From contig NZ_JABSNM010000019.1 of assembly GCF_013294065.1 (NCBI RefSeq), positions 1 through 64,000 on the forward strand: a stretch of 64,000 nucleotides of DNA. The letters are read 5' to 3'. The translations under genes were made by a program, and so were the position numbers. A model generated the notes under the pieces. The model was not told the DNA's origin and did not search any database. It was given only the letters and a program-made list of their open reading frames with translations. The stretch comes from Sphaerotilus uruguayifluvii (GTDB taxonomy: Bacteria; Pseudomonadota; Gammaproteobacteria; Burkholderiales; Burkholderiaceae_C). Shown here piece by piece: positions 1-4,298 of this stretch. The stretch's first letter is position 1. Each line of letters begins with the position of its first letter.

Positions 1-43
1 ATGATAGTGCGCATTCGCGTGTGAAAGTAGGTCATCGTCAGGC
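1..43 (+). rRNA. rrf: 5S ribosomal RNA, 3' end (partial)
   Basis: The first 43 bases match the 3' part of betaproteobacterial 5S rRNA, including the GTGTGAAAGTAGGTCATCGT segment followed by CAGGC. The gene enters from the left edge, so the rest of the rRNA operon lies outside the window. An intrinsic terminator follows 12 bases later. Recognition is from memory of Burkholderiales 5S sequences. Confidence 0.93.
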
Positions 44-55
44 TTCTATTCCAGC

Positions 56-89
56 AAACCCCTCTGATCTTCTGGTCAGAGGGGTTTTT
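56..89 (+). terminator. rho-independent terminator of the rRNA operon
   Basis: A perfect 12-bp stem (AAACCCCTCTGA, 56-67, pairing with 76-87) closes an 8-base loop and runs into five T. It lies just after the 5S 3' end and would stop rRNA transcription before it meets the convergent mnmA and transposase genes. Confidence 0.93.
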
Positions 90-195
90 GCTTTGGCGCA
101 TCGAAACGATGAAACCTTGTCTTGGGGGAATTCCTGGGTGTGGCCGCGATGGCGGCCTCATGCCCGGATGTGATTTGCGGGGGATCAGTCGATCA

Positions 196-205
196 CCGTC
201 GTGAT
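196..205. repeat. target-site duplication, left copy
   Basis: CCGTCGTGAT directly abuts the left inverted repeat of the insertion sequence and is identical to 1421-1430 on the other side. Both copies derive from the 3' end of mnmA. An exact 10-bp duplication suggests a fairly recent insertion. Confidence 0.93.
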
Positions 206-1420
206 CAGGGCCGTTCACTGCTCCCTGACGTCCGCATAGTTGAGCACGAGGTCAAGGCAAAGAGCGTTGCGGTAGAGGGCCTGGGAGATGTTGGTCTGGC
301 CATTGGCCCGCAGCAGGTTGAGAGCGAGATGGCGCAGTCCTGCAAAGACGCCGGGATTGCGCCGGATGCGGCAGGCATCCTCGGCCAGGGCCGTGTCGAG
401 GACGTGATGGAGCTGGTTCTCGATGGCCCAGTGGCCGCGGATGGCCTGGGCCAGCTCTTCGGCGCTGGCCTGGCGGGTGCACAGGTACAGGGCGGGCTGC
501 TCGGCGCGGGGGACGAAGGTCTTGCGGGCGGGGTCGAAGATCTCGGTGGTGCGCGTGACCTCGATCAGGCACTGGAAGTGATCGTGCCAGGGCTCCAGGC
601 CGCTGCCGGCGGCCAGGGGCCACACGCGCACGCGGCGCTGCTCGATGCGGTTGCGCCGGCCCAGCGTGGCGCCGTAGTGCTCGTCATGGGCAGGACGGCG
701 CCGGACCTGCTCGCGCAGGCGCGCCAGCAGCCGGGGCTGATTGCCCTTGAGCTGGATCAGCGCGCCGCCGCCGAGCCCGACGATGCGCTCGACCGTGTTT
801 TTTGCAAGTGCAGCGCGTCCAGCGTGTACAGGCAGTCGCTCAGCCCCAGCTCGGCGATCAGGCGCTGGGCGGCCGCGATCTCGTGATCCTTGCTGCCGTC
901 CTCGATCAGCACATGCCCGAGCACCACCCGCTCCTGCACCGCCAGCGCGCTGAGCACCTGGGCCGCTCGCCGGTCCTCGAAGCGCGCCAGGCTGCCGCGC
1001 AGCGTCTTGCCGTCCAGCGCGATCACCGCCCGGCCCACCGGAGCTGTCGTGTGCTCGACCTGCTCGCTGGCCAGCCGGCGCAGCGCCGCCTCCAGCTCTG
1101 CGGCATCGAGCCCCTGCAGGATCTTGCGCAGCCCCGTGTAGGCCGGTGCGCGCTTCCACCGGCTGCCGAACGCCTCGTTGAGAGACTGCCAGTGCGCCTG
1201 CAGGAACTGCTCGATCTTGCGATACGACGTCGCCCCGGACGCCACCGCCAGCACGCTGTACAGCAACACGTGCGGCAGGTCGTAGCGCTTGCCCTGCGCT
1301 CGGCGCGGATCACTCACCTGCGCCAGGCTTTGTTTCAGCCATGACATCGTCGTCCCGTTCCATCTGCCTCGGTCAGCCGCGCAGTTTGCCGCAGGTCAGT
1401 GTTAGCAGTGAACAGCCCTG
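206..1420 (-). mobile_element. ISAs1-family insertion sequence, 1215 bp
   Basis: The ends are inverted repeats. CAGGGCCGTTCACTGCT at 206-222 matches the reverse complement of 1404-1420 with one mismatch, and a further CTGAC is shared inward at a small offset. A perfect 10-bp direct repeat flanks the element (196-205 and 1421-1430). The only gene inside is a DDE transposase read on the minus strand, whose stop codon lies inside the left inverted repeat. The element landed within the last codons of mnmA. Length, terminal CAGGG and the transposase type fit the ISAs1 family. Confidence 0.93.
215..1347 (-). pseudogene. ISAs1-family transposase, frame-disrupted at an A6 run
   Basis: Two overlapping minus-strand frames together make one transposase of about 377 residues. 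The N-terminal frame (from 1347) carries the DDE-associated region, VIALDGKTLRGS and YTLDALHLQK. The C-terminal frame resumes at KNTVERIVGLGG and carries GHWAIENQLHHVLD and the conserved C-terminus. Catalytic Asp, Asp and Glu regions are all present. The join is a run of six A on the coding strand (798-803), and a -1 shift restores the frame. This may be an inactivating indel, a sequencing error in the homopolymer, or -1 slippage. ISAs1 transposases are usually a single frame, so I call it broken. The start codon overlaps the extended mnmA end. Confidence 0.85.
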
Positions 1421-2540
1421 CCGTCGTGATGATGCCGCCGCCCAGGCATACTTCGCCGTCATAGACGACGGCCGACTGGCCCGGCGTGACCGCCCATTGC
1501 GCCTCGTCGAACTGCAGACCGAAGCTACTGTCAGTCGGGTTGCCGGCGTCGATGCGGCAACGGGCATCGGCCTGGCGATAGCGGGTCTTGGCAGCGCAGA
1601 CGCCCGGCGTTGGCGCCTCGCCGGCCACCCAGCTGATGTCGCCCGCACGCAGCTGATGCGACTGCAGCCACGGGTGGTCATGGCCCTGCACGATCCACAG
1701 CGTGTTCTTCTCCATGTCCTTGCGGGCGACGAACCAGGGTTCGTGGTCGCCGCCGCCGCGTGCCGACTTCTTCTCCTTCACGCCGCCGATGCCGATGCCC
1801 TTGCGCTGGCCGAGCGTGTAGAAGCTCAGCCCCACATGTTCGCCGAGCACGCGACCGCGGTCGTCCTTGATCGGGCCGGGTTCCTTGCTCAGATAGCGGT
1901 TCAGGAAGTCGCGGAACGGGCGCTCGCCGATGAAGCAGATGCCGGTCGAGTCCTTCTTCTTCGCGTTGGGCAGGCCGATCTCCTCGGCGATGCGGCGCAC
2001 CTCGGTCTTGTGGATCTCGCCGACCGGGAACATCGTCTTCGACAGCTGCGTCTGGTTCAGCCGGTGCAGGAAGTAGCTCTGGTCCTTGGCCGGGTCCAGG
2101 CCCTTGAGCAGCTCGAAGCGCTGGCTGGTCGGGTTCTCGCGCACGCGGGCGTAATGGCCGGTGGCGATCTTTTCGGCACCGAGGCGCATCGCGTGGTCGA
2201 GGAAGGCCTTGAACTTGATCTCGGCATTGCACAGCACGTCCGGATTGGGCGTGCGGCCCGCCTGGTATTCGCGCAGGAAATCCGCGAAGACGCGGTCCTT
2301 GTATTCGGCGGCGAAGTTGACGTGCTCGATCTCGATGCCGATGACGTCGGCGACCGAGGCGGCGTCGAGGAAGTCCTGGCGCGACGAGCAGAACTCGCTG
2401 TCGTCGTCGTCCTCCCAGTTCTTCATGAAGATGCCGACGACCTCGTGACCCTGCTGCTTGAGCAGCCAGGCGCTGACGGCCGAGTCGACGCCGCCGCTCA
2501 GGCCGACGACGACACGCTGCGGACGCACGTCCGTGCTCAT
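1335..2540 (-). CDS. mnmA: tRNA-specific 2-thiouridylase MnmA with IS-derived C-terminal tail
   Basis: MnmA thiolates U34 of the tRNAs for Lys, Glu and Gln in the cytoplasm. The N-terminal PP-loop SGGVDS (residues 15-20), catalytic Cys104 (VLCNAEIKF) and Cys202 (STGICFIG) are all present. The start overlaps the upstream NUDIX stop by ATGA. The protein is 401 residues. Removing the insertion sequence and one target copy restores an end of GGIITT-Val-Ile-Asp-stop and a 376-residue protein. The current gene therefore has its last three residues replaced by 28 residues encoded by the IS end. The core domains are intact, so activity is likely kept (inference). The stop lies 13 bp inside the transposase gene. 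Confidence 0.95.
1421..1430. repeat. target-site duplication, right copy
   Basis: CCGTCGTGAT, identical to 196-205, lies immediately outside the right inverted repeat of the insertion sequence and within the mnmA reading frame. Confidence 0.93.
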
Positions 2541-3031
2541 GCCGCACCTCCGGCGCCCAGGGCGTCCTCGGCCCAGACCGCGTCCAGCGGGTGGCTGCGG
2601 CCGGCCAGATGGTCCTCGATGCAGCGCAGCAGCATCGGCGAGCGGTGGCGCGCGACGCTGGCGCGGATCTCGTCCGGTGTCATCCAGACGGTGCGCACGA
2701 TGCCGGCGTCGAGCGCCTGGCCGGGAATCGGCTCGCCGACCTGCCCGCGGTAGGCGAAGCGCAGGTAGGTCACGTCCGCAGCCGGGTCGGCCTCGCGGTG
2801 CATGCGGGCCAGATAGACGCCGAGCAGGGTCTCGGGCACGAAGTGGCGCCCGGTCTCCTCGAGCGCCTCGCGCACCACGCCCTGCAGCAGCGACTCTCCG
2901 GCCTCGAGATGGCCGGCCGGGTTGTTCAGTTTCAGACCATCGGGTGTCTCTTCCTCGACCAGCAGGAAGCGGCCTTCCTGCTCGATGATGGCCGCGACTG
3001 TGACACTGGGTTTCCAACGTTGTTCGCTCAT
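2537..3031 (-). CDS. nudJ: NUDIX hydrolase, NudJ-like
   Basis: This 164-residue NUDIX hydrolase would cleave nucleoside di- or triphosphates or thiamine pyrophosphate-type substrates. The NUDIX box is clear: [20 protein letters not shown] followed by TG, fitting GX5EX7REUXEEXGU with its metal-binding glutamates. It overlaps mnmA by 4 bp, and E. coli nudJ (ymfB) also sits next to mnmA, which supports the NudJ assignment. No signal peptide or extra domain is seen. Substrate is not deducible from sequence alone. Confidence 0.85.
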
Positions 3032-3154
3032 GTCGCGATCCTACCGGCTCGGGCTGTTACCGGGGGGAGGCGGGCCGTGTGACGCGCCATGTCTCCGGGA
3101 TCACTCGGGGGTGGTCCCATCACGCGATCTGTGTAATCTGACTCGTTCCACAAC

Positions 3155-3162
3155 GAGGAGGG
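3155..3162 (+). promoter_or_regulatory. strong ribosome binding site of pntAA
   Basis: GAGGAGGG lies 5 bases before the ATG at 3168. It fixes the start there rather than at in-frame upstream ATGs, and gives a protein beginning MLVGVPLETAAGETRVA, as in other PntAA proteins. Confidence 0.75.
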
Positions 3163-3167
3163 GTGAG

Positions 3168-4298
<1,131 letters not shown>

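Follow-up and report, generated by a model that had tools for sequence, protein, structure and literature searches.

The first genes of this contig raise two questions: whether an insertion sequence has exchanged the end of mnmA, which encodes a tRNA 2-thiouridylase, while leaving the rest of the gene intact, and how the inserted element encodes its transposase. By the window we mean the whole stretch of DNA analysed, positions 1–64,000 of Sphaerotilus uruguayifluvii contig NZ_JABSNM010000019.1 (contig C19 of genome G000, a draft of 48 contigs). Published work is cited from excerpts of the papers concerned.

Results

An ISAs1-family element lies within the 3′ end of mnmA

The window opens at the contig end, and its first bases are the tail of a 5S rRNA gene as judged by likeness to the same locus of a congener (L011); the gene is cut by the contig end, and the family search returned no 5S rRNA match. 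mnmA lies on the opposite strand to the 5S rRNA gene and its terminator. It starts at 2540, where a Nudix gene identified by domain search (2537–3031) overlaps the mnmA start, and a consensus scan found no sigma-70-like promoter in 1–3200. The features of the locus are as follows.

56–87, plus strand: terminator-like stem-loop of the convergent rRNA operon, from likeness to L011 and a stem-loop scan
185–187, minus strand: former mnmA stop codon, placed by joining the flanks and by the stop of a sibling at the same place; now downstream of the element
196–205, no strand: target-site duplication copy 1, CCGTCGTGAT, exact 10 bp
206–1420, minus strand: ISAs1-family insertion sequence, 1215 bp, recognized by its ends, duplication and transposase domains; sole full copy found in the genome
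206–222, no strand: terminal inverted repeat, transposase 3′ side
1404–1420, no strand: terminal inverted repeat, transposase 5′ side, CAGGGCTGTTCACTGCT on the minus strand
1421–1430, no strand: target-site duplication copy 2, CCGTCGTGAT, exact 10 bp
1335–2540, minus strand: mnmA, tRNA 2-thiouridylase, 401 aa, last 28 codons from the insertion
1338–1421, minus strand: the 28 C-terminal codons that replace the old end, with no structure predicted from residue 376 onward

ISAs1-family elements are H-repeat-like elements with related terminal inverted repeats starting CAGGG and target duplications of 8–10 bp; their usual description includes a single transposase ORF, a trait that is not strictly defining. 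The window element resembles the family in its CAGGG-type ends, which begin CAGGGC and pair at 16 of 17 positions (94%), in its exact 10-bp duplication, and in its DDE_Tnp_1_assoc and DDE_Tnp_1 domains (PF13808 in ORF1, E = 2.1e-19; PF01609 in ORF2, E = 1e-5). The single ORF is missing from the window element and from all 18 scorable copies of its clade, as described below. The transposase is encoded on the minus strand, in the same orientation as mnmA. A second mapping of repeats around IS copies recovered CCGTCGTGAT again, and the original prediction of an ISAs1-family element at 206–1420 between exact 10-bp repeats is confirmed.

Relatives retain the empty site

When the two flanks are joined with one copy of the duplication, mnmA ends GGIITT-V-I-D-stop with the stop at 185–187, as had been predicted. 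Our search of the genus covered 13 genomes including our own, 12 of them with mnmA. The locus L011 (G012) is a natural empty site in synteny, with the 5S rRNA gene, the terminator and an mnmA ending GGIITT-V-I-A-stop. It carries a single copy of the target, one base different, and its flank toward the 5S rRNA terminator is the same as that of the window. The mnmA of L010 (G007) is likewise short-tailed, ending GGIITT-V-M-A-stop. A long tail in IS-free relatives, or the lack of the short end at the empty site, would speak against a replaced C-terminus; since L011 and L010 carry short ends and the element-encoded tail is absent from all 11 other genus genomes with mnmA, neither was found. These comparisons support the view that the insertion swapped the C-terminus and left the rest of mnmA intact.

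The new tail lies beyond the conserved MnmA fold

The element transposed into the last mnmA codons in the same orientation as the gene. MnmA thereby lost three residues and gained 28 that lie beyond the conserved fold and are predicted to be unstructured, because the end of the element stays open for 27 codons in the entering frame. This entry phase is the longest-open of the three (27 codons versus 15 and 5). The present frame reads ...GGGIITT followed by 28 element-encoded residues and stops at 1335–1337, so that, as first described, it ends 13 bp inside a transposase reading frame whose ATG is at 1345–1347.

The HUP, PRC-barrel and C-terminal beta-barrel domains of an MnmA are all present, and the Pfam matches are full or nearly so (PF03054, 1–201 of 202; PF20259, 1–66 of 66; PF20258, 1–77 of 77). 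The Pfam C domain stops at residue 371. Homology to the MnmA of PDB entry 2DER covers residues 7–372 and ends just before the new residues; the window protein differs from it in that the insertion sequence supplies the tail past the conserved GGGII end. In a structure model built from a shallow alignment of 20 sequences (mean pLDDT 66.6, with other stretches also below 50, 101 residues in all), the last strand, 364–374, is kept, and residues 376–401 have pLDDT below 50 and no secondary structure.

The stretch following the conserved CxGG(G/A)xI motif is 30 residues long in the window MnmA. Across 90 relatives (92 loci minus our own copy and L105, a duplicate of L019) it ranges from 1 to 35 residues with a median of 7, and three of the 90 have a tail as long as that of the window MnmA or longer. 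Apparent long tails in L079, L068 and L103 were rejected; there the tblastn matches cross those genes' own stops.

Could the 28 unrelated residues impair MnmA, or alter its regulation, given that the mnmA transcript would now extend into the element? We consider this quite improbable in view of the complete domains, the free variation of tail length and sequence among relatives, and the lack of structure modelled for the tail from that shallow alignment. The proposal that mnmA survived with a replaced tail stands on the empty sites and the complete domains, but the weight it implied is reduced, because the new tail starts only at the end of the conserved part and the tails of relatives are so variable. 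The swap is probably near neutral for MnmA, whose activity is most likely unchanged. It is a real exchange with ordinary consequences, and the split transposase is the more interesting part of the locus.

The transposase is split between two frames at an A-run

The first reading of the locus spoke of one transposase gene and overlooked a frame split. The overlap of 13 bases between the mnmA stop and the transposase start holds, but what starts there is the first of two overlapping frames, not one ORF. The frames join at a T6/A6 run.

757–1347, minus strand: transposase ORF1, 196 aa, with the DDE_Tnp_1_assoc domain and two catalytic Asp (DGKTLRG, DALH)
798–803, minus strand: A6 run, codons CAA AAA A, the ORF1/ORF2 junction
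215–802, minus strand: transposase ORF2, in the −1 frame, with the rest of the DDE domain and the catalytic Glu (IENQLHHVLDTALAED)

Both halves are conserved in alignments with relatives, DGKTLRG and DALH in ORF1 and the IEN...VxDxxxxED region in ORF2. From knowledge of the family, we take the Asp of DGKTLRG, the Asp of DALH and the Glu of ORF2 to be the D, D and E of the DDE triad. As in recoded insertion sequences, the ORFs overlap and the complete catalytic set is found only in the fusion, with D and D in one frame and E in the other. A stimulatory RNA structure, which is common but not universal in such elements, was not found in the window element: the RNA on either side of the run folds no more strongly than shuffled sequences do (z = −0.47 downstream, +0.59 upstream).

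The split is shared by related ISAs1 elements

We assembled 20 run-bearing copies representing about 12 distinct elements: the window copy, L153 (G179), L154–L157 (G689), L165 (G848) and 13 loci from plasmid records (L150–L152, L158–L164, L166–L168; identity at least 43.8%, best place per record). The copies were picked by likeness to the window element and share ancestry; the plasmid relatives carry the annotation "ISAs1 family transposase". Every one of the 20 has a run of A6–A8, always at one and the same codon, and with it a conserved slippery sequence at the junction, as in recoded elements. A6 is the shortest run among the 20, found only in the window and L159.

ORF2 is out of the ORF1 frame in all 18 scorable copies when offsets are scored by likeness to transposase and not by the longest open frame. 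Seven have ORF2 at −1 (window, L158, L160, L161, L162, L163, L165) and 11 at +1/−2 (L150, L151, L153, L154, L155, L157, L159, L164, L166, L167, L168). The other two, L152 and L156, are +1/−2 by eye beside the run and damaged further on; tblastn gave another frame for L152, from a distant piece, and none for L156. Scoring by longest open frame would instead place L159 in frame (177 versus 151 codons) and L156 at −1 (30 versus 27), the likeness to transposase in L156 lying in +1/−2 and both of its frames being shorter than 31 codons. Further damage was found in four of the 20 copies: L152, L156, L157, which has a break near residue 121, and L159. In this last copy, from an Acidiphilium plasmid, the first catalytic Asp is replaced by His, the run is A6 against A7 in the closely related L158 and L160, and the zero frame stays open for longer than ORF2.

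Paired ends with exact 10-bp duplications were mapped for 10 of the 20 copies, and a search for exact 8–10 bp repeats found no such pair for L151, L152, L156–L159, L163–L165 or L167. Near-identical split elements in Skermanella (1043 and 1045 of 1050 nt, same protein accessions) occupy different sites on three plasmids.

A homopolymer in a 48-contig draft genome might be suspected as a sequencing or assembly error. Out-of-frame runs occur at the same place in plasmid records described as complete, which makes an error in the window's A6 very improbable indeed.

At the cut-offs used, the class and phylum samplings found our own copy alone in 369 genomes, and clade members in 2 of 398 and 1 of 48; the family-level search found them in 3 of 399 genomes. 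A scan of viral contigs detected no relative of the element. Weak matches beyond our own copy, G179, a remnant on C9 and a stretch in G006 (E = 2e-7 or weaker, over short spans) were taken as chance.

Selection, codon choice and phylogeny

Among copies that share the split, ORF2 evolves under purifying selection when read in its own frame. Its dN/dS is 0.17–0.19 among L153, L154 and L155 and 0.23–0.61 in the seven other pairs measured; the L153–L156 pair was left out because its ORF2 is too short. ORF1 is more constrained than ORF2 in 10 of 10 pairs.

The A-run is not a product of base composition. CAA AAA A is present at the junction in 11 of 11 elements, whose GC ranges from 0.49 to 0.70, whereas elsewhere in these elements Gln is encoded by CAA in 33 of 141 cases and Lys by AAA in 30 of 121. 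No other A-run of at least six was found in the 11 elements, L152 and L156 being covered in part. Because the elements share ancestry, the product of these codon probabilities is not a p-value. In a phylogenetic tree, one branch (99/98) separates 13 run-bearing rows from seven run-free ISAs1 rows, and the split reads as a clade feature of ISAs1 elements.

These data bear on whether the A6 is an ordinary homopolymer mutation in a dead element, with the split of its relatives reflecting a recurrent mutation hotspot and not recoding. Such a reading would suit an A6 at the short end of the range, a single full copy in the genome and the damage in four of 20 relatives. It fits poorly with the selection on ORF2 and with the near-identical split copies at several Skermanella sites; moreover, not one of the 18 copies that could be scored has ORF2 in frame, and half of the 20 join the run with paired ends and exact duplications. 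On balance we hold it unlikely.

ORF1 and ORF2 might also be separate, cooperating proteins made without recoding. Annotation lists two genes for the elements of Skermanella, Mesorhizobium, Rhodovastum and Acidibrevibacterium, and for the latter two genera it starts ORF2 five bases ahead of the run. Yet L150, L158, L160, L161, L162 and L163 have no ATG, GTG or TTG between the upstream stop of ORF2 and the run, and a single frame contains both halves in L131 and L138, which are related ISAs1 elements. The two-protein model is therefore very improbable.

A proposal for slippage at the A-run

We think it likely that the locus is jointly explained by a tail swap through ISAs1 insertion and by a clade-wide split transposase that is read by slippage. 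In this clade the transposase is divided into ORF1 and ORF2, whose frames differ and meet at the A6–A8 run. A minority of read-outs would slip on the run, most likely by RNA polymerase on the homopolymer, and yield the full transposase with D, D and E. The usual read-out would yield ORF1 alone and keep transposition low. The split and run look like programmed recoding, probably transcriptional slippage, because of the selection on ORF2, the codon choice, the tree branch and the Skermanella copies at several sites. The window copy may on this proposal still be active and may have moved in its present A6 state, but it is the only full copy that its genome contains.

Is the change of frame made by the polymerase or by the ribosome? 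In L158, L160, L161, L162 and L163 the zero-frame reading CAA AAA AAN forms a classical heptamer, phased with a −1 ORF2, and the window has the shorter A_AAA. A −1 offset at A_AAA_AAN suits ribosomal frameshifting equally well. A −1 shift cannot give the +1/−2 change that 11 of the 18 scorable copies need from the same run, however, and the window element shows no significant downstream structure. Frameshifting by the ribosome at A_AAA or A_AAA_AAN, in place of polymerase slippage, thus seems somewhat unlikely. According to the excerpt of PMC3711429, the presence of both offsets in one transposase family is a sign of transcriptional realignment, and because both occur in this one clade we favor that process. 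Efficient slippage is described at about nine A's in the excerpts of PMC1088944 and PMC5009743; with six to eight the yield may be low, as would be fitting for a transposase.

Possible coupling of the transposase to mnmA

Translation of ORF1 could plausibly be coupled to mnmA by reinitiation at the stop/start overlap. Nine other copies, a few of which are close duplicates, have mapped ends, and in all nine every entering frame meets a stop ahead of the earliest candidate start codon of ORF1. The overlap is therefore peculiar to this copy and phase. Coupling by itself could deliver only ORF1, since the transposase is frame-split and ORF2 would still need slippage.

If slippage were partly ribosomal, a change in MnmA level or activity caused by the new tail might tune the transposase output of the element in a feedback loop. 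The slip codons CAA and AAA would be read by tRNA-Gln(UUG) and tRNA-Lys(UUU), which are thiolated at wobble U34 by MnmA, the product of the gene that the element occupies and to which ORF1 translation may be coupled. The tRNAs for Lys, Glu and Gln carry the wobble thio group (excerpt of PMC5372729), and this group improves reading-frame maintenance (excerpt of PMC11784392). We regard the loop as a long shot.

Other mobile-element traces in the genus

Besides the full copy, our genome contains short matches and one 83-bp remnant of the transposase 3′ end (95%; L002:1501-1583, equal to G000:C9:114357-114439), which adjoins a fragment resembling an IS5-type transposase by eye. A 62-bp stretch in G006 (G006:C1:4424808-4424869, L022) matches the element's 5′ end at 85% identity and is perhaps a relic or short derivative of it.

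The mnmA 3′ end has been struck repeatedly in the genus. In addition to the ISAs1 element, the start of an IS3-like element, so called from a reading of its first ORF, occurs soon after the mnmA stop in G007 (L010, from about 2633) and G003 (L015, within 141 bp after mnmA); the two are the same element, with 97% identity over 103 nt. G007, the closest sibling, also has eleven PF13808 matches (L132, L137, L140–L148). Ten lie in open frames of just 96–114 aa; the eleventh falls below the cut-off and spans 62 aa including a stop. These are perhaps truncated or decayed ISAs1-type transposases.

Discussion

Recoded transposases are described in IS1, IS3, IS5 and IS630 (excerpt of PMC5009743), and in the IS427 group of IS5 and the IS407 group of IS3 the complete DDE motif exists in the fusion only (excerpt of PMC3281130). 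Like these, as far as the excerpts describe them, the window element has two overlapping ORFs that would be joined by a frame change. It differs in belonging to another family and in being split between the second Asp and the Glu. The ISAs1 clade also differs in having both offsets in one clade, and its recoding is predicted from sequence. Within ISAs1 the clade is set apart by two frames meeting at A6–A8, a run that the seven run-free ISAs1 rows used for comparison do not have.

Transcriptional slippage is described for Deinococcus and Nostoc IS elements with runs of eight to ten A's (excerpt of PMC1088944). The ISAs1 clade shares with them the A-run at the ORF junction but has six to eight A's. 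Like the DDE_Tnp_1 clusters in the excerpt of PMC3711429, it combines +1 and −1 variants within a family. The name ISAs1 does not appear in the text obtained of PMC1088944 or PMC3711429 (0 occurrences of "isas"). Among the matches listed by a limited search, including the excerpts of PMC5009743, PMC1088944, PMC3711429, PMC3281130 and PMC9569102, we found no description of recoding in ISAs1, which is weak evidence for novelty.

The mnmA locus is a clean natural case in which an insertion sequence has exchanged a protein tail that can be spared, and the empty site is available for comparison. More broadly, a clade of ISAs1 seems to hold the two parts of its transposase in different frames around an A-run, with −1 and +1/−2 members alike, and for this reason annotation splits or misses the transposase. 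If this is true, ISAs1 would join the families that ration transposase by slippage, and the natural variants within the clade could be used to test how such sites are shared between RNA polymerase and the ribosome.
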